Below, one piece after another: positions 817-51,390 of a DNA stretch of 64,000 nucleotides. Position numbers and translations under genes: made by a program. Location: contig NZ_JALIQP010000003.1 of NCBI RefSeq assembly GCF_023566055.1, forward strand, positions 186,001 through 250,000, read 5' to 3'. The first letter of the stretch is position 1, and every line of letters starts with the position of its first letter. This stretch comes from Halosolutus amylolyticus. GTDB taxonomy: Archaea > Halobacteriota > Halobacteria > Halobacteriales > Natrialbaceae. The notes beneath the pieces were generated by a model that worked only from the letters and a program-made list of their open reading frames with translations, was not told the DNA's origin and did no database searches.

Positions 817-1674
817 ATGTCTCAGGACCAGGTTACACCGCCGACGGTGACGCGAGAGGACATTCACAGGATCGACGACGACTCGTTTACCGAACGGAAC
901 ATCTGTCTCGTCACGGGCGCCGGATCGGGGATCGGACGTGCGACCGCGCTCGCGGCCGCGGGCAACGGGCTCACCGTCGCGGCGACCGACGTCGACGAGG
1001 ACGGCCTCGAGGGTACCGTCGATCGGGGCGCGGAACTCGATCTCGCGGGGTCGATCGAACCGATCGCGGGGGATCTCACGGACGACGACGACATCGAGCG
1101 GATCGTCGCGGACGCCGCGGAACTGGGCGACGTCAAGTACCTCGCGAACGTCGCGGGGATGCAACACATCGATTCGATCGACGACTTCCCGATGGCGGCC
1201 TACGATCGAATGCACCAGGTGATGCTTCGAGCGCCGCTGTACCTCTCGAAGCTGTGCATTCCGCACTTCCGGGAGACCGAGGACGGACAGGGGTGCGTCG
1301 GTAACATGGCCTCGGTCCACGGCCACTACGTCACCAGCGACAAGGTCGGCTACAACGTCTCGAAGTTCGGCCTGCGCGGGCTGACACAGTCGATCGCCGC
1401 CGAGGGCGACGGCGAGATCCGCTCGTTCTCGGTCAGCACCGGCTACGTCCAGACGCCGCTCGTGACGGACCAGCTAGAGGACACCGCCGAACAGCGCGGC
1501 ATCAGCGTCGACGAGGTGGTCGAGGACGTGATGCTCGGCCAGTCCCGCGTCAAAGAGATGATGGACCCGATCGACGTGGGGAACCTCTTCCTGCTCGGCT
1601 TCTCGGATCTGGGACGGCACCTCGACGGTGGAGACCTGTTGTTTGATGGTGGAATGACTCTTACGTACGAGTGA
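817..1674 (+). CDS. Short-chain dehydrogenase, D-3-hydroxybutyrate dehydrogenase-like
   Basis: A 285-residue Rossmann-fold SDR. The cofactor motif TGAGSGIG lies at residues 33-40, NVAG at 111-114, and the catalytic Ser156, Tyr169 and Lys173 (YNVSK) are intact. The C-terminal region (VQTPLVTDQL, later ISVDEVVEDVML) matches the pattern of NAD-dependent 3-hydroxybutyrate dehydrogenases, which interconvert 3-hydroxybutyrate and acetoacetate. The ATG at 817 was preferred over a GTG at 784 because the extra 11 residues do not look like an SDR. The stop overlaps the leader of the following acyl-CoA synthetase, so the two genes are almost certainly co-transcribed. Exact substrate is inferred. Confidence 0.85.
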   Translation: MSQDQVTPPTVTREDIHRIDDDSFTERNICLVTGAGSGIGRATALAAAGNGLTVAATDVDEDGLEGTVDRGAELDLAGSIEPIAGDLTDDDDIERIVADAAELGDVKYLANVAGMQHIDSIDDFPMAAYDRMHQVMLRAPLYLSKLCIPHFRETEDGQGCVGNMASVHGHYVTSDKVGYNVSKFGLRGLTQSIAAEGDGEIRSFSVSTGYVQTPLVTDQLEDTAEQRGISVDEVVEDVMLGQSRVKEMMDPIDVGNLFLLGFSDLGRHLDGGDLLFDGGMTLTYE

Positions 1675-1679
1675 GTTCC

Positions 1680-3698
1680 ATGTCCGCAGATACCAGCCTG
1701 GAAGACGTCGACGAGATCGTTCACGAACCCAGCGAGGAGTTCGTCGAGTCGACGAACGTCCACGAGTTCATGCAGGCGTACGACATCGACGACTACGACG
1801 AACTCGTCGAGCGAACCACGACGGACCTCGAGGGCGTCGAGGCGTCGGGCGTCGACTGGTTCTGGGACGAACTGGTCGACTACCTCGATATCGAGTTCTA
1901 CGAGGAGTACGACGACGTACGGGACGACAGCGAGGGGCCGCAGTTCACCGACTGGTACCCCGGGGGCGAACTCAACGTCGCCCACAACGTCTGCGATCGC
2001 CACGCCGCCGTCGACGAGGAACGACGCAACACGGTCGCGACCATCTGGGAGGGCGAGGACGGCGATATTCGAGAGGTAACGTACCACGAACTCCACCGCC
2101 AGTCGAACAAGGTCGCCAACGCGCTCGAGGCGCGGGGCATCGAGACCGGGGACACCGTCGGCCTCTACATGCCGATGGTCCCCGAGGTCGTCTCGATCCT
2201 CTACGGCTGTTTCAAGGTCGGCGCGATCGCGGTGCCGATCTTCTCCGGGTTCGGTGTCGACGCCGCCGCCACCCGGATCGCGGACGCCGAGTGTTCAGTG
2301 CTCTTTACGGGTGACGGCTTCCTCCGACGCGGCGATCCGGTCTTCCTCAAGTCCGCCGCCGACGAGGCGATCGAGGAGGCCGGCTACGTCGAGCACACGA
2401 TCGTCTTCGACAGATTAGACTCCAGCGATCCGAAGAGCGAGCACGAGATCCCCTGGACCGACGATCGCGACGAGTGGTGGGCCGACGCCGTCGAGTCGGC
2501 CGACGACGCGTACGAGACGAAGTCGCTCGACTCGAGCCAGGAGTCGATGCTCCTGTACTCCTCCGGAACCACGGGCAAGCCGAAGGGGATCGTTCACACG
2601 CACGCGGGCGTCCAGATCCAGTGTGCCAAGGAACTCCACTTCGGCTTCGACCTCAAGCCCGCCGATCGGTTCTTCTGGGTGAGCGACATCGGCTGGATGA
2701 TGGGTCCCTGGACGCTGATCGGGACCCACACCTTCGGCGGCACCGTCTTCATGTACGAGGGTGCGCCCGACCACCCGGAACCCGATCGGTTCTGGGAGAT
2801 GATCGATCGGCACAAGCTGACCCAGTTCGGCATCTCGCCGACCGCGATCCGTGCCCTACGCAAGCACGGGGACGACTGGCTGGAGGGCCACGATCTCTCC
2901 TCGCTCCGACTGCTCGGGTCGACGGGCGAACCCTGGGATCCCGAGTCCTGGCGGTGGTTCTACGAGAACGTCGGCGGCGGTGAGGCCCCGATCATCAACA
3001 TCTCCGGCGGCACCGAAATCTGTGGCTGTTTCCTGATGCCGATGCCGACCGAACCGCTGAAACCCTGCACGCTCGGCGGGCCTGGCCTCGGGATGGACAT
3101 CGACATCGTGAACTCCTCGGGCGAGTCCGTCAAAGCGGACAACGAGCGGGGCTTCCTCGTCGCGAAGGATTCCTGTCCGTCGATGACGAAGTCGCTCTGG
3201 TCGGGCGACGAGCGCTACCTGAACGAGTACTGGTCGATGTTCGAGGACATGTGGGATCACGGCGACTGGGCCCAGAAGGACGCGGACGGCTTCTGGTTCC
3301 TCCACGGCCGCGCCGACGACGCGCTTAACGTCGCCGGCCGCAAGGTCGGCCCGGCGGAGGTCGAGGGGGCGCTCATCGATCACGAGGCGGTCAACCAGGC
3401 CGCGGCGATCGGCGCGCCCGACGACACCACCGGAACCGCCGTCGTCGCTTACGTCGTCCTCGAGGACGGGATCGACGAAACGGACGATCTCCGCGAAGAA
3501 CTTCGCGCACAGGTCGGCGAGGAACTCGGCAAGCCGTTCCGCCCGCGCGAAGTGCTGTTCGTCGACGAGTTCCCCAAGACACAGTCCGGCAAGATCATCC
3601 GCCGAGCCATCCAGGCGATCTACACCGGCGAGGATCTGGGCGACATGAGCAGCATCGAAAACCCGGGCGCGTTAGAGGACCTCGAGGAAGCGAGATAA
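1680..3698 (+). CDS. AMP-forming acyl-CoA synthetase (acetyl/acetoacetyl-CoA synthetase-like)
   Basis: A 672-residue ANL-superfamily ligase, which activates a carboxylic acid as acyl-AMP and transfers it to CoA. Visible motifs are the P-loop YSSGTTGKPKG near residue 291, GGTEICG near residue 443, and the C-terminal PKTQSGKIIRRA with the adenylation lysine at about 638. An N-terminal cap of about 90 residues precedes the WYPGGELNVAHNV motif common to acetyl/propionyl/acetoacetyl-CoA synthetases. The ATG at 1680 lies 6 bases after the SDR stop. Pairing with a 3-hydroxybutyrate-type dehydrogenase suggests acetoacetate or another short acid as substrate, but acetate cannot be excluded. A decayed partial copy lies at 7609-7941. 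Confidence 0.87.
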   Translation: MSADTSLEDVDEIVHEPSEEFVESTNVHEFMQAYDIDDYDELVERTTTDLEGVEASGVDWFWDELVDYLDIEFYEEYDDVRDDSEGPQFTDWYPGGELNVAHNVCDRHAAVDEERRNTVATIWEGEDGDIREVTYHELHRQSNKVANALEARGIETGDTVGLYMPMVPEVVSILYGCFKVGAIAVPIFSGFGVDAAATRIADAECSVLFTGDGFLRRGDPVFLKSAADEAIEEAGYVEHTIVFDRLDSSDPKSEHEIPWTDDRDEWWADAVESADDAYETKSLDSSQESMLLYSSGTTGKPKGIVHTHAGVQIQCAKELHFGFDLKPADRFFWVSDIGWMMGPWTLIGTHTFGGTVFMYEGAPDHPEPDRFWEMIDRHKLTQFGISPTAIRALRKHGDDWLEGHDLSSLRLLGSTGEPWDPESWRWFYENVGGGEAPIINISGGTEICGCFLMPMPTEPLKPCTLGGPGLGMDIDIVNSSGESVKADNERGFLVAKDSCPSMTKSLWSGDERYLNEYWSMFEDMWDHGDWAQKDADGFWFLHGRADDALNVAGRKVGPAEVEGALIDHEAVNQAAAIGAPDDTTGTAVVAYVVLEDGIDETDDLREELRAQVGEELGKPFRPREVLFVDEFPKTQSGKIIRRAIQAIYTGEDLGDMSSIENPGALEDLEEAR

Positions 3699-3774: not shown

Positions 3775-4518
3775 TTACCGGCGTCGCCGCGACCAGACGC
3801 CGCCAGCGATCGCGATCGCCGCCGCTCCGAGTCCGAACCCGGGCTGGGAGTCACCGTCGTCTGCCCCGTCCGACGGGACGATGACCGCCTCATATCCCTC
3901 GAGCGACGTGTTCGCATCCCAGCTGACGTGTCCGTCAGCACGCTCCGACGGCTCCGGCGTCGCCTCCGCGAGCGCGTATCCGTCGGGAAGCTGCAGGACG
4001 ACCGCCTGATCAGCCGTGAATCCGCTGTTGAACGGTTCTGCGATGGTCAGCAGTCCGTCCTCGGTTGCTGCGAACCCGCGCCAGGTCGCCGAGACGGAAA
4101 CGATACCGCGATCGGTCTGGTCGTCCGTCTCGAAGGAGACGCGCGTCTCCTCGATCGCCATCTCGCGGTCGGTCTCGTTAGCCACACCGGCCACGACCGA
4201 CTGCAATCGCCGTTCGGTGCGCGCCTCGAGTTCGCTCCGTTTCGTTTCGTTCTCTTTGAGCGACTGGAACGCCGCACGGTCCGCTTCGTCGGTCAGATCG
4301 AACGTGACGACGACAGTGACCGTCGCGTCGCCGTCGTCCTCGAGGGCGACCACGAACGCCGAGTCCGTTCCCTGTGAGTGGGCGTCGATCGCACTTGCGC
4401 TATCGGCGGTTGCGGCGACGCTTCCGGTCAGGAGGAGCGCAACGAGTACGACGGCGAAGAGCCGCGACGCGTACACGCCCACCCGCCGGAGTCGCGGTTG
4501 GTTCGGTTCCCGATTCAT
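3775..4518 (-). CDS. PGF-CTERM surface protein with an ectodomain shared with the HTH protein at 6351-7505
   Basis: 247 residues. An N-terminal signal peptide (hydrophobic LFAVVLVALLLTGSVAATA) is followed by one extracellular domain. The end has the tripartite archaeosortase signal: PGF at about residue 226, a short hydrophobic helix and a final WSRRRR. Such proteins are cut and lipid-anchored by archaeosortase A, which is encoded at 50347-51390. The central region aligns by eye with residues about 70-220 of the divergent protein at 6351-7505: a charged helix ending in ERRLQSVVAGVANET versus ERRMTGVVSNAAEST, then SATWRGF versus SFTWTNF, FNSGF versus FGGGF, and LPDGY versus PPTGY. The start ATG overlaps the stop of the upstream poly-Asp gene (ATGA), indicating an operon. 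Function is unknown. Confidence 0.85.
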   Translation of the reverse strand: MNREPNQPRLRRVGVYASRLFAVVLVALLLTGSVAATADSASAIDAHSQGTDSAFVVALEDDGDATVTVVVTFDLTDEADRAAFQSLKENETKRSELEARTERRLQSVVAGVANETDREMAIEETRVSFETDDQTDRGIVSVSATWRGFAATEDGLLTIAEPFNSGFTADQAVVLQLPDGYALAEATPEPSERADGHVSWDANTSLEGYEAVIVPSDGADDGDSQPGFGLGAAAIAIAGGVWSRRRR

Positions 4519-6185
4519 CGGTCATCGTCTTCGGAATCGTCGTCACCGTCCAGCTCGTCGTCGTCCACGACGTCATCGTCGTCAGCTTCGGTATCGTCGT
4601 CTACGTCGTCATCGTCTTCGGAATCGTCGTCGTCAGCTTCGGTATCGTCGTCTACGTCGTCATCGTCTTCGGAATCGTCGTCGTCAGCTTCGGTATCGTC
4701 GTCTACGTCGTCATCGTCTTCGGAATCGTCGTCGTCAGCTTCGAACTCGAGTTCGATCTCGGTCTCGAGTTCGCCGCGATTCACGTCGATGTCGAGTTCG
4801 TCTGTATCCGCGGGGAGGGCGAAGGAAACCGTGCCGTCGTCCCCGGTCGTGCCGACTGCTTCGTCGTTTGCGACGACATTTGCACCCGACACTGGGGTCC
4901 CGTTGAACGTCACGGAGACGGTCACGGTTCCGTTGTCGATCGTCGCTTCGGCGTCCAACTGCGATTCAGCATCGTCGTCCATCTCGTCCGAATGGTCGCC
5001 GAACTCGAACTCGAGTTCGCCCTCGGCCTCGCCGCGTTCGGCGTCGATATCGACATCTTCGCGTGGCAGGGTAACGGTGAGTTCGCCGTTGCTATCCGTC
5101 TCGCCAACGGCCTGGTCGTTGACGGTAACCGTCACGTTGGCTGCCGGCTGTCCGTCCGCGAGCACTCGCAGCGTCACCTCTTCGCCGGGTCCTGGCGATC
5201 CGGACGCGACGAGAATTACTAACCGCTCGTCGTCTTCGTCTTCTCGCTCGTCACTGTCGTCGTCATCGTCTTCGTCCGCCGCTCGCGTCGCGATCTCTTC
5301 CTCGAGTTCGAAGACGGTTCCCGTTTCGCCGTCGACGCTGACCTCGGCCTCGCCGGTTTCGGTTCCCGTCAGAACGAACTCGAACTCGTAGACGCCGTCG
5401 TCGTCGGTTTTGGCCTCGACGAGGCTCCAGCTACTGTTGCCGTCGACGTCCGAAAGGGCATCGGTCGTTGCAGTGAGTGCGTCCGTCTGAGAGATCTCCA
5501 GCGATCCGTTCCCGTCGCGGGGCCGCTCGTACTCGCGGCTCCGTTCGCCGTCTTCGTTCTCGACTTCGATCGACAGGCCGCCGTCGATCTCGATCTCCGC
5601 GTTACCGCGCTCTTCACCGGTGAACTGTCGGAGCAGCGCGTCGGTCCCGGAACCTGTGAGCTCGGACAACGCCTCCCGTTCGTCTTCGATCTCGGACAGC
5701 GTCACGCCGGCGCTACGACGGTCGACCTCGTCGAGTGACTCGACGCGCTCCTCGAGGCGGTCGTAACTCGACACGACGCTCTGGGCCCGTGTGTTCAGCG
5801 ACGCGAGCTGCTGTGCGTACGTCGACTTGTCAATCTCGCCGGACTCGTAGGCTGCAGTGGCCTCCTCGTACTCCGCCTGGAGCGTTTCCGACCGGTTCTC
5901 GAGGACCGCCGCTCGATCAGCGATCGCCGTTGCACGGTCGCTGTCGTTACTCCGCTCGATGCGTTCGTCGAACGCCGTGTTCTCGAACTCAGTTCGGACT
6001 TCGTCGCTCGTTGCCGTGACGACCGTCGACAGCTGTGCGCCGGTCGTCACGGTCACGTTGTCCTCGGTCGTTTCGTGGCCGTTCGTCTCGTCCTGCGCCA
6101 CCGTCCCGGCGGCGACCGCCGGGCCGAGGACGCTCGTACAAAGCAAGATCGCCATCGAGACGATCAGTAGTCGTCGGGGTATCAT
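4515..6185 (-). CDS. Secreted, highly acidic protein with two Ig/CarboxypepD-like repeats and a poly-Asp tail
   Basis: 556 residues. An N-terminal signal peptide ends near VLGPAVAAG. A helical, probably coiled-coil region (residues about 75-150, e.g. LENRSETLQAEYEEATAAYE) comes next. Then there are two copies of a beta-type domain: one contains GQPAANVTVTVNDQAVG and VTLPREDVDIDAERGEAEG, the other GTPVSGANVVANDEAVG and FALPADTDELDIDVNRGELE. The tail is almost pure Asp/Glu and contains three perfect 17-residue repeats. No C-terminal membrane anchor is visible, so it should be secreted or held by partners. It is the first gene of an operon with the PGF-CTERM protein. It resembles haloarchaeal surface proteins of unknown function; the acidic tail could bind cations (inference). 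Confidence 0.8.
   Translation of the reverse strand: MIPRRLLIVSMAILLCTSVLGPAVAAGTVAQDETNGHETTEDNVTVTTGAQLSTVVTATSDEVRTEFENTAFDERIERSNDSDRATAIADRAAVLENRSETLQAEYEEATAAYESGEIDKSTYAQQLASLNTRAQSVVSSYDRLEERVESLDEVDRRSAGVTLSEIEDEREALSELTGSGTDALLRQFTGEERGNAEIEIDGGLSIEVENEDGERSREYERPRDGNGSLEISQTDALTATTDALSDVDGNSSWSLVEAKTDDDGVYEFEFVLTGTETGEAEVSVDGETGTVFELEEEIATRAADEDDDDDSDEREDEDDERLVILVASGSPGPGEEVTLRVLADGQPAANVTVTVNDQAVGETDSNGELTVTLPREDVDIDAERGEAEGELEFEFGDHSDEMDDDAESQLDAEATIDNGTVTVSVTFNGTPVSGANVVANDEAVGTTGDDGTVSFALPADTDELDIDVNRGELETEIELEFEADDDDSEDDDDVDDDTEADDDDSEDDDDVDDDTEADDDDSEDDDDVDDDTEADDDDVVDDDELDGDDDSEDDDR
4583..4740. repeat. 51-bp in-frame tandem repeat (three copies) encoding a 17-residue Asp-rich unit
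   Basis: The motif cagcttcgg recurs at 4583, 4634, 4685 and, truncated, at 4736, a strict 51-bp period. On the reverse strand each unit encodes EADDDDSEDDDDVDDDT. The three full copies are identical at nucleotide level as far as I can read, so they are recent or kept alike by recombination. Copy number changes would alter tail length without a frameshift. Confidence 0.95.
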
Positions 6186-6280
6186 CGATCACGTCTCGGA
6201 ACCTATCAGGGATAAACCGGATCGATCGTGGCATCGATTCCTACCGAATTGCACGGCTCGGGGCCGGTTCGTGCGGTCGT

Positions 6281-6310
6281 TTGCAGCGATTTGCGATGGC
6301 TTGCAATCGT
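6281..6310 (+). promoter_or_regulatory. Three TTGC half-sites at exact 10-bp spacing upstream of the HTH membrane protein promoter
   Basis: ttgcagcgat, ttgcgatggc and ttgcaatcgt follow each other at 6281, 6291 and 6301, one helical turn apart, just 5' of the TATA box at 6323. Spacing on one DNA face is typical of an activator or autoregulator site. Which protein binds is unknown; the membrane HTH protein itself is a candidate. Confidence 0.4.
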
Positions 6311-6322
6311 GAAGACAGTATG

Positions 6323-6328
6323 CTTATA
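6323..6328 (+). promoter_or_regulatory. TATA box for the leaderless HTH membrane-protein gene
   Basis: cttata lies about 25 bases 5' of the GTG at 6351, the distance at which archaeal RNA polymerase starts, so the transcript is probably leaderless. This supports the GTG at 6351 as start. Confidence 0.55.
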
Positions 6329-6350
6329 CGACCTCTCTCGAAAGTGAACG

Positions 6351-7505
6351 GTGACCGTGAGTACCCCATTCGATCGTATTGCCGTGGTCCTCGCAGTGAT
6401 ACTCACGCTGGTAGCGGTTCCCGTCGGGACGACAGCGTCGACCGGCCAATCTGGTCCGACCGGTACTGACGATGGGTCCGCGATCGTGGCAGCCGAGACG
6501 CCCGAGGCCGACACGACAGTAACGCGGATCGCGATGGACGAGAACGGCACCGCTCACTGGTCGGTGACGGTTCGGACGCGACTCGCCAACGACTCCGAGG
6601 TGGACGACTACGAGGCCTTCCAGGAGCAGTTTCGTGCTAACCGAGAGAGCTACGTCGAGCAGTTCGAACGCCGAATGACCGGCGTCGTCTCGAACGCCGC
6701 GGAATCGACTGGCCGGAACATGACGGCGTCGTCGTTTCGCGCGGAGACGTCGATCCAGGAGGTGCCGAGACAGTGGGGTATGGTTACGTACTCGTTCACG
6801 TGGACGAACTTCGGCGTGGTCGACGGCGACGAAATCGCCGTCGGTGACGTGTTCGGTGGCGGATTCTACCTCGACGACGACGATCGGCTACAGATCGCCC
6901 CGCCGACGGGGTACGCGCCGACGGCGACATCGCCGCCGCCGGACGAGCGCGATGGCACAACGGCCGTCTGGGCGGGGCCCGAAAGCTTCGCCGATCGCCA
7001 TCCCACGGTCCGGTTCGAACCGGCCAACTCGGCCGTCGATAGCGACCACGAGGGAACGAACCCGTGGGACAGCACACCACTCGGGGTCGTCGGCGGTATT
7101 CTGCTCGTTGCGATCGTTGCGATCGGCGTTTTCGTCGGATCGCGACGCGGTCTCCCCCGGCAATTACGCTCGAGCGTGCACATACTGACCGCGTCGACCG
7201 ACCCTGCTGCCGCGACCGAGACTGACGACAGCGCTGAAGCACGGAGCGACGGCGACGAGTCGGTGGAATCGCCAGCAAGCGGCCCCGCATCACCGGCGCC
7301 CGAACTCGCGACCGACGAGGATCGCGTTCGGACACTTCTCGAGCGAAACGACGGTCGGATGCGGCAGGCTGCGGTCGCCGAGGAACTCGACTGGTCGGCG
7401 TCGAAGACCTCGCGGGTCGTGTCGGGAATGGCCGAGGAAAACGCGGTCGAAAAACTGCGGATCGGGCGCGAAAACGTGATAGACCTGCTCGAGAACTCGG
7501 ACTAG
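6351..7505 (+). CDS. Membrane-anchored transcriptional regulator: extracellular sensor domain, one TM, cytoplasmic winged HTH
   Basis: 384 residues. An N-terminal signal/TM segment (about 7-28) is followed by an extracellular domain of about 200 residues that resembles the PGF-CTERM protein at 3775-4518. A membrane helix (about 243-263, LGVVGGILLVAIVAIGVFVG) and a disordered acidic linker come next. The C-terminal winged HTH (about 322-384) reads DEDRVRTLLERNDGRMRQAA and then VAEELDWSASKTSRVVSGM. This architecture is known in Halobacteria as a one-component membrane-tethered regulator. It is divergent to the operon encoding its ectodomain homologue, which suggests it controls that operon (inference). 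The start is a GTG at 6351; GTG at 6357 is an alternative. Confidence 0.8.
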   Translation: MTVSTPFDRIAVVLAVILTLVAVPVGTTASTGQSGPTGTDDGSAIVAAETPEADTTVTRIAMDENGTAHWSVTVRTRLANDSEVDDYEAFQEQFRANRESYVEQFERRMTGVVSNAAESTGRNMTASSFRAETSIQEVPRQWGMVTYSFTWTNFGVVDGDEIAVGDVFGGGFYLDDDDRLQIAPPTGYAPTATSPPPDERDGTTAVWAGPESFADRHPTVRFEPANSAVDSDHEGTNPWDSTPLGVVGGILLVAIVAIGVFVGSRRGLPRQLRSSVHILTASTDPAAATETDDSAEARSDGDESVESPASGPASPAPELATDEDRVRTLLERNDGRMRQAAVAEELDWSASKTSRVVSGMAEENAVEKLRIGRENVIDLLENSD

Positions 7506-7608
7506 ACGTCGGTACTGTCCCTGCGACTACGTAGTGGAGGGAAACGCGAAGCAAACAGCCACAGCGGTGTCCGCGGTGGTCCAGCGAGCTCAGTCGCTCC
7601 CCGCTGCG

Positions 7609-7941
7609 GTATCGGCGTCGACCGGTTCTGTGACGGACTGGTCGACTACCTCGGGATCGAGTTCGACGAGGAGTACGACGAAATCCGGGACGACTGCGAC
7701 GGGTCGCAGTTTTCCGACCGGTATCCCGGCGAACTCGACATCGCTCACAACGTCGTGGATCGCCACGCCGCGGTCGACGAGTGCTCCAAGACCCAGTCAG
7801 TCGGGGAAGATCATCCGACGGGCTCAGGCGACCTACACGGGCGAAGATCTCGGCGACATGAGCAGCATCGAAACCCCCGGGGCGATCGAAGAACTCGAGG
7901 ACGCGCGGTACGCATCGATCGAATCGGTACCCGAGGGCTGA
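7609..7941 (+). pseudogene. Internally deleted, frameshifted remnant of an acyl-CoA synthetase
   Basis: The first part encodes GLVDYLGIEFDEEYDEIRDD and AHNVVDRHAAVDE, matching residues about 60-112 of the synthetase at 1680-3698. The next codons jump directly to its C-terminus, and after a frameshift read QSGKIIRRAQATYTGEDL and DMSSIETPGAIEELEDARY. In the intact gene these segments are about 1.55 kb apart. The junction falls in gtcgacgag (7773-7781), a 9-mer present at both corresponding positions of the intact gene (2010-2018 and 3561-3569). The adenylation P-loop and core are absent, so it cannot be an active ligase. No start codon or promoter is evident. Confidence 0.85.
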
Positions 7942-50346: not shown

Positions 50347-51390
50347 ATGTGGTCGTTCGTAACGACGCCCGGAAGTGCACCGGCCGTCGGTGTCGGGGTC
50401 GTAGACGCCGTCCCGGTGATATCGGCCGTGATCAGTTCCGGGATGACCGACTGGCTGGCGTGGGTCGCCATCGGCGCGTTCGTCGTCGCGCTCGCCCTCC
50501 AGTGGCAGGATCGGCCCGGCCCGGCCCGCCACGTCGCCGCGGCCGCGTGGGTCGTCTTCGGCGTCTTCTGGCTGACGATGGTGCCGTACTACTACACCGA
50601 CGCCCAGAGCCCGTTACAGACCGTTCTCTCGCTCGCCGCCCTGCCGCTGTGTACCTACACGGGGTATCTCCTCTTCCGGGGACGGGACTCGCTCATGCTC
50701 CTGTCGAAAGCGGTGATGTTCATGGGGGTGATCTACCTGCCCGCCGAGACCATCCCCGTCGTCCGGACGTGGCTGATCGAGACGACCGCAGCCCAGACCC
50801 ACTACGGGATGGAACTCCTGGGGCACAGCCCCGGACTCGCGGAGGGGCCGGAGGGGTACCGGAGCAAGTTCGCGTTCGATCCGGACGAGACCGTGACCGG
50901 CCGGACGACCTACATCGTCCTCGCCTGTACCGGCATCGGGAGCATGGCCATCTTCGGCGGCCTGATCGCCGCCGTGAAGGCACCGCTCCGCCGAAAAGCC
51001 ACCGCGTTCGCGCTCGCGGTCGGGGTCATCTGGTTCCTCAACCAGGTCCGGAACGTCTTCATCGGCCTCGCGTCGCCGTGGGGCTGGTTCCAGCAGGACT
51101 GGCTGGTCTCGTTCATGACGACGTACATGGGTGCCGAGCCGAGTCGCGTCTCCTTTCTCGTCGCGCACAACTACATCGCCCAGATGCTGTCGGTCGTCGC
51201 GCTCGTCGGGATCACCTTCCTCGTGGTCCGGATCCTCCCCGAGATACTCGAGCCGCTAGAGGACGTCCTGTTCGTCCTCACCGGCACCGAGTACGACCTC
51301 CAGGAGGCGCTCGGCGAGGAGGTTCGCGCCGACGGCGGCCACGCCGCCGGGGCCGAAGATAGTTCGGGTTCGGGATCGAACGCCGAGTGA
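50347..51390 (+). CDS. artA: Archaeosortase A
   Basis: 347 residues, about eight membrane helices. The catalytic cysteine is Cys194 in VLACTGIGSMAIFGGL and the catalytic arginine is Arg235 in FLNQVRNVFIGLASPWGWF. His274 in SFLVAHNYIAQMLS, with Arg267 close by, occupies the third conserved region of the archaeosortase/exosortase family. ArtA cleaves PGF-CTERM proteins and supports their lipid attachment; a substrate is encoded at 3775-4518. The ATG at 50347 was chosen because upstream codons contain the promoter. The stop overlaps the next start (TGATG). Confidence 0.93.
   Translation: MWSFVTTPGSAPAVGVGVVDAVPVISAVISSGMTDWLAWVAIGAFVVALALQWQDRPGPARHVAAAAWVVFGVFWLTMVPYYYTDAQSPLQTVLSLAALPLCTYTGYLLFRGRDSLMLLSKAVMFMGVIYLPAETIPVVRTWLIETTAAQTHYGMELLGHSPGLAEGPEGYRSKFAFDPDETVTGRTTYIVLACTGIGSMAIFGGLIAAVKAPLRRKATAFALAVGVIWFLNQVRNVFIGLASPWGWFQQDWLVSFMTTYMGAEPSRVSFLVAHNYIAQMLSVVALVGITFLVVRILPEILEPLEDVLFVLTGTEYDLQEALGEEVRADGGHAAGAEDSSGSGSNAE

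Follow-up and report, generated by a model that had tools for sequence, protein, structure and literature searches.

In the BlaR1/BlaZ and MecR1 systems, a divergently transcribed locus encodes both a sensor and a surface protein that is a homologue of the sensor's ectodomain, BlaR1 borrowing the fold of the beta-lactamase BlaZ. How archaea monitor their envelope is still mostly an open question. Transmembrane transcription regulators (TTRs) such as ToxR, CadC and ArnR carry a winged helix-turn-helix (HTH) domain, a transmembrane (TM) segment and an extracytoplasmic domain in one chain (PMC10269533, PMC6396743). The ToxR boxes are direct repeats with a period of 10 base pairs (bp; TNAAA-N5-TNAAT), located just upstream of the promoter (PMC7496328), and in the co-component systems VtrA/VtrC and ToxR/ToxS the regulator is accompanied by an adjacent gene for an extracytoplasmic partner (PMC9214523). 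Here we describe a locus in a 64,000-nucleotide stretch of the genome of Halosolutus amylolyticus (contig NZ_JALIQP010000003.1, positions 186,001 to 250,000; hereafter the window), in which the gene of a membrane-tethered regulator is divergent from an operon encoding a DUF7096 protein and a stand-alone copy of the regulator's own ectodomain (the look-alike), with an array of 10-bp direct repeats between them. We consider it reasonably probable, at roughly 60%, that the locus encodes an autoregulated cell-surface circuit, in which the membrane regulator would act via the array on the DUF7096/look-alike operon, on its own gene and on the genes of related surface proteins. The features concerned, in window coordinates, are the following:

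3775..4518, minus strand: stand-alone look-alike, 247 amino acids (aa), with a signal peptide, a DUF7345 domain and a short hydrophobic C-terminus
4515..6185, minus strand: DUF7096 protein, with a signal peptide, DUF7096, two Ig-like domains and an acidic tail
6213..6217, minus strand: putative TATA-like box (TTTAT) of the DUF7096/look-alike operon, read from the sequence
6280..6309, plus strand: candidate operator, three direct repeats with exact 10-bp spacing, TTTGCAGCGA TTTGCGATGG CTTGCAATCG
6323..6328, plus strand: putative TATA-like box of the regulator (CTTATA), read from the sequence, about 15 bp past the array
6351..7505, plus strand: transmembrane transcription regulator, 384 aa (Pfam, AlphaFold2 (AF2), hydropathy)
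50455..51300, plus strand: Archaeosortase A (ArtA), TIGR04125 above cut-off (E 2.4e-99)

The 10-bp repeat array and its targets

The window array lies upstream of the DUF7096 promoter and close to the TATA-like box of the regulator. A self-match at period 10 that is as good as this is reached in 0.75% of dinucleotide shuffles, and the pattern TTGCN6TTGCN6TTGC has its single occurrence here, both in the 64 kb and in the genome. Equivalent 10-bp arrays are present between the orthologous genes, with p<=0.035 in 17 of the 20 intergenic regions tested (the window's included), and 10 was the best self-match period in 62% of 45 upstream regions of DUF7096 genes outside the A arrangement described below, vs 8% of 526 controls, which were other upstream regions taken from these loci; a self-match taken across all periods 9-12 separated the two sets only weakly and was abandoned in favor of period 10, which separates them. 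The commonest unit, TTRAWCSG in 10-bp repeat, gave 20 matches in an exact search of 59 genomes vs 0 for the reversed pattern, and the exact consensus TTRAWCSGNNTTRAWCSG about 129 matches in 391 genomes vs 3 for reversed controls. In DUF7096 promoters, the array starts upstream of the TATA-like box at a distance of 30-54 bp (median 44), which would suit an activator. In L126, from a different archaeal class, GAAC-type 10-bp repeats precede a DUF7096-like gene (upstream of 2932). A pattern derived for the K-type operators, MAAAMCGNNNMAAAMCG, proved weak (28 matches vs 4 controls); of the matches read, three stand before expected targets, including the small PVPDFV gene of the window's own genome, and most resemble chance occurrences. 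In the related genomes G007 and G001 the array is identical, TTAATCCGAGTTAATCCG, and more AATT-rich repeats come after it (L149 and L150); no gene was recognized directly downstream of it in that stretch.

An indication of what binds the array comes from the HTH itself, one helix of which carries KTS[Q]V, KTS[K]V or KTS[R]V. TTRATC units were found in 21 of 23 loci with KTS[Q]V vs none of 10 with KTS[K]V (Fisher 7e-7, a value that is too optimistic because Q may have given way to K only once on the tree), and all 20 readable window-type loci have KTS[R]V together with units that are mostly GTTTGCA or GTTTCRC-like. Because three residue classes agree with three operator classes, the neighboring membrane regulator is probably the DNA-binder at the array, and the best candidate for it.

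Reading of 81 distinct array sites placed 50 of them ahead of five families, namely 33 DUF7096 genes, 7 for small secreted PVPxFV proteins, 5 for secreted Ig-like proteins, 4 for DUF4382 proteins and 1 regulator. At 7 of the remaining 31 sites, the array stands in reverse orientation at a promoter of one of these kinds. Since 40 of the 81 sites were fetched by hand and picked to look unlike DUF7096 promoters, the count underestimates the share of DUF7096. The secreted Ig-like targets and the window DUF7096 protein have matching Ig domains. The array-preceded genes probably form a cell-surface regulon of the membrane regulator. In three genomes of one genus (L151, L213, L218) the array stands before response-regulator receiver-like proteins, a possible further target class.

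The three proteins and their neighborhood

The regulator has a hydrophobic N-terminus, a DUF7345 ectodomain (residues 59-188, window 6525-6914; PF24036, E 7.2e-33, 114 bits vs a gathering cut-off of 27.5), a single TM segment (residues 244-262, about 7080-7136) and a C-terminal cytoplasmic DUF7343 winged HTH (residues 319-379, about 7305-7487; PF24034, E 1.7e-27, 95.5 bits vs 27.6). The predicted local distance difference test (pLDDT) of its AF2 model is mostly 85-98 in the ectodomain and 88-96 in the HTH. Pfam and hydropathy are thus in agreement with an earlier sequence-only reading of this DNA, which had described 6351-7505 as a membrane regulator with ectodomain, TM segment and cytoplasmic winged HTH. 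The DUF7343 HTH and hydropathy peaks at residues 10 and 244 give the protein the architecture of a TTR, defined as a DNA-binding domain and at least one TM segment within one chain (PMC10269533). Foldseek gave no close solved-structure match to the ectodomain; its matches (FMO protein, M61 peptidases, LppM, ZrgA) had TM-scores <=0.43 and large root-mean-square deviations and were not used. A transcription start 25 bp beyond CTTATA would make the regulator transcript leaderless. Directly behind the regulator gene lies what is left of a second acetyl-CoA synthetase gene (7614-7905, plus strand), which in two pieces shows 57-82% aa identity to the gene at 1671-3698.

The look-alike carries its DUF7345 domain at residues 57-181 (window 3976-4350; E 2.7e-23, 83 bits vs the cut-off of 27.5). 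The sequence-only reading had proposed that the two proteins share an ectodomain and had suggested a profile-profile comparison, and the idea is well supported: DUF7345 is found in both, direct BLASTP of regulator vs look-alike gives 2e-14, and hhalign of 13 look-alikes vs 12 regulators gives a significant similarity over 204 columns (probability 99.9, E 1.1e-34). The C-terminus of the look-alike (about 3778-3843) is QPGFGLGAAAIAIAGGVWSRRRR, in which a PGF motif can be seen by eye. PGF-CTERM proteins would be processed by ArtA, whose gene lies inside the same window, and this makes it plausible that the look-alike is anchored by the sortase. Of the earlier proposal of a PGF-CTERM protein anchored by ArtA, the visible motif and the encoded enzyme stand; the PGF-CTERM model TIGR04126 (cut-off 24.5 bits) is not reached, the window look-alike giving no match either in hmmscan or, even at E 10, in a scan of its own genome, and several orthologues terminate in PTPLAPTLALL..GWRR without PGF. 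The look-alike paralogue at C3:285696 does match TIGR04126, with 25.2 bits.

The middle gene overlaps the look-alike gene by ATGA. Its product belongs to DUF7096 (PF23379) with 33.5 bits, or 38.9 in the genome scan, vs a cut-off of 27; the domain (about 5649-6050, E 5.1e-8) is modeled by AF2 as a long helical hairpin. The two Ig-like domains (about 5007-5219 and 4746-4958) score in Pfam as Fn3_arc (1.3e-7) / CarboxypepD_reg, and their AF2 models have Foldseek matches to Ig/Fn3 folds, while the poly-Asp/Glu tail (about 4518-4739) is disordered in the model. The overlap, the signal peptide and the Ig folds bear out the earlier description of the look-alike as co-translated with a secreted poly-Asp protein of two Ig-like domains. 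A PepSY domain (PF03413), and with it a protease-control model, was considered for this protein and rejected, the score being under the cut-off (15.7 bits, E 0.019, vs 24 bits); the segment has a helix-strand-strand-strand pattern with AF2 pLDDT <50.

DUF7345 and DUF7096 occur in 60 of 60 Halobacteria genomes (the window's own and 59 others, a class-wide sample). In the A arrangement, the regulator is divergent from a long DUF7096 gene near V-ATPase genes; the B arrangement combines the regulator with a short DUF7096 gene, a look-alike often comes next, and argG/argH are often adjacent. A third group includes the window, whose nearest regulator relatives (42-83% identity) are present in about two dozen of 242 genomes and scattered over several families. 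DUF7096 is divergent from the regulator in all 22 window-type loci, the window included, and in 17 of them the look-alike follows 0-97 bp downstream of DUF7096, so that the three genes do recur together, as the sequence-only reading had expected of related genomes. Among 15 named look-alike loci, collected with a close look-alike alignment and hence limited to close look-alikes, DUF7096 is present within the stretch in 13 and the HTH in 11. These neighborhood counts depend on a simple gene caller and on profiles made for the analysis, and single cases may therefore be off. Co-directional versions of the unit exist across Halobacteria, and DUF7096-look-alike pairs also in other archaeal classes. 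DUF7096 is the more constant partner, because it accompanies DUF7345-HTH regulators even where no look-alike is found; the look-alike is thus an addition to a system that is class-wide, of which the window carries a divergent version.

The H. amylolyticus genome has seven DUF7345 copies, five in regulators and two in look-alikes. Its second full triad is co-directional and lies about 90 kb off (G000:C3:283086-285554; L008 4433-7789), preceded by a small secreted PVPDFV gene that itself has an upstream 10-bp array. At the A-type loci (L010 3987-7262, L091-L104) the DUF7345 regulator is divergent from a DUF7096-DUF7094-Fn3_arc protein, and a short protein with a pilin-like N-terminus comes next in most of them. 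Three DUF7345 genes are clustered in a Haloarculaceae bin (L142 3808-7495), in the order look-alike, regulator, DUF7096, look-alike.

A tree of 100 DUF7345 domains places the look-alikes of Halobacteria, that of the window among them, in one clade (28 rows, support 100/99). The look-alikes of L074 and L114 fall apart from this clade, with A-type regulators (100/92), and that of L115 is placed apart again; in L114 and L115, which represent other groups of the phylum, DUF7096 is still directly upstream of the look-alike. By this tree, the look-alike has been gained at least twice, each time directly behind DUF7096, which suggests that DUF7096 is a partner of DUF7345, probably a direct one. In L114, from a non-halobacterial archaeon, the DUF7345-HTH gene is split in two reading frames (6737-7713, plus strand) and divergent from the DUF7096/look-alike pair.

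Proposed circuit and alternative explanations

In the circuit that we propose, the membrane-tethered regulator would sense the outside through DUF7345, and its cytoplasmic winged HTH would bind the direct repeats head to tail, one helical turn apart. Bound to the array, it would control, and most likely activate, its own gene and the DUF7096/look-alike operon; in other genomes, small secreted PVPxFV, Ig-like and DUF4382 proteins would be under the same operator. The DUF7096 protein may contact DUF7345 domains, and the look-alike, where present, would engage at the surface whatever partner or ligand the regulator engages, and the regulator's output would then report the free amount, as a feedback; alternatively, the look-alike could pair with the regulator ectodomain as a co-sensor. 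Its role may accordingly be titration of DUF7096 or its ligand, co-sensing, or that of a pure effector. The sensing circuit of the sequence-only reading gains support in its control of surface proteins, from the array, the helix covariation and the recurrent targets, and as a conserved three-gene unit; the binding of a ligand or of the poly-Asp protein by the ectodomains, and titration or activation of the regulator, are its conjectural part. More speculatively, the DUF7096 surface protein might itself be the signal, shared by the regulator and an anchored copy of its sensor domain, and might control a regulon of surface proteins through a 10-bp direct-repeat operator whose period, not its sequence, is conserved across archaeal classes.

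Several observations count against the proposed circuit. The A-type DUF7096 genes, a universal divergent pair near V-ATPase genes, have no such array, which means that not every family member works through it; these loci were also rejected as a source of the operator. Five of the 22 window-type loci lack a look-alike nearby, DUF7096/look-alike pairs occur without an adjoining HTH (L111-L113, L133, L134), and 24 of the 81 array sites precede nothing recognized, several of these being chance sites, as they lie before transposons. The possibly single origin of the Q to K change belongs here as well.

The alternatives differ in how much of the circuit they give up. It is very hard to believe that nothing regulatory is involved and a surface-protein operon merely hitch-hiked or came by chance to lie beside a regulator: surface-protein genes do often cluster with regulators, but here order and spacing are conserved over many genera and the operator is shared. 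That the array serves another transcription factor, the HTH being merely its neighbor, would account for arrays before DUF7096 genes without a neighboring HTH (L133, L147, L153) and for the A-type regulator locus without an array; we find it improbable, since the helix residue covaries with the unit across the Q, K and R classes, arrays are found at the regulator's own promoter in window-type loci and L194, and period 10 is also best in upstream regions of other archaeal classes, where the unit is another one (L115, L126).

The remaining alternatives concern the look-alike. Its DUF7345 might form an obligate or stabilizing heterodimer with that of the regulator, as in VtrC-VtrA or ToxS-ToxR, and the same domain at the same locus, the confident globular models of DUF7345 and the pairing of regulator and adjacent partner in co-component systems (PMC9214523) are in its favor. 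We regard this as rather unlikely, however: many regulators (A-type and most B-type) are conserved without a look-alike, so that the pairing is not obligatory, and VtrA and VtrC are not copies of one domain, which leaves an analogy only. A little less doubtful, yet still tentative, is the view that the surface function itself is carried out by the look-alike and DUF7096, and that the regulator borrows the domain only to sense their ligand. BlaR1/BlaZ is the precedent, the two genes are co-translated behind the array, and the remaining array targets are surface proteins too; no catalytic or binding site was recognized, however, and the stand-alone clade is not nested in one regulator subclade, so the tree gives no order of origin.

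Relation to described systems

DUF7345, DUF7343, DUF7096, DUF7094 and Fn3_arc are Pfam families of unknown function, of which the three window proteins are members by score. A search of the literature on DUF7345, DUF7343, DUF7096, DUF4897 and COG2512 found nothing relevant, no paper in which DUF7345, DUF7343 or DUF7096 is named, and no operator or regulon described. CsmR of Haloferax, which also came up, is a small 13 kDa winged-helix protein and is reported without relation to the DUF7345-HTH family. With the proposed circuit, domains that lack an assigned function and occur in every one of the 60 Halobacteria surveyed would become parts of a concrete system with a named regulator, an operator and a target list, and its operators, drifting with one helix residue while the 10-bp period is kept, offer a natural series for the co-evolution of a membrane regulator with its operator.

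With ToxR the window system shares a membrane-tethered winged HTH and 10-bp direct-repeat boxes, but the HTH of ToxR is N-terminal and of OmpR type, whereas that of the window is C-terminal, belongs to DUF7343 and is closest to IclR/MarR models, and the ectodomains differ. The likeness to TTRs is an analogy, because no sequence relation was found, and the 50 listed Foldseek matches of the regulator model include neither ToxR nor VtrA. An adjacent gene for an extracytoplasmic partner is common to the window and to VtrA/VtrC and ToxR/ToxS, and should the look-alike act as a modulator, the window system would work in the manner of these or of BlaR1/BlaZ; here, however, the partner is a second copy of the same domain, DUF7345 and not lipocalin-like, it is joined by a third protein (DUF7096) and it is not obligatory in all genomes, so that VtrA/VtrC too is an analogy only. 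As in BlaR1/BlaZ and MecR1, the sensor domain is homologous to a divergently encoded surface protein, but the window system has neither an enzyme nor a metalloprotease module, and its regulator is one-component. In HTH type, HTH position and ectodomain it differs from the ToxR, co-component and BlaR1 families and is a member of none of them; what is new is the 10-bp direct-repeat array and its set of surface-protein targets.

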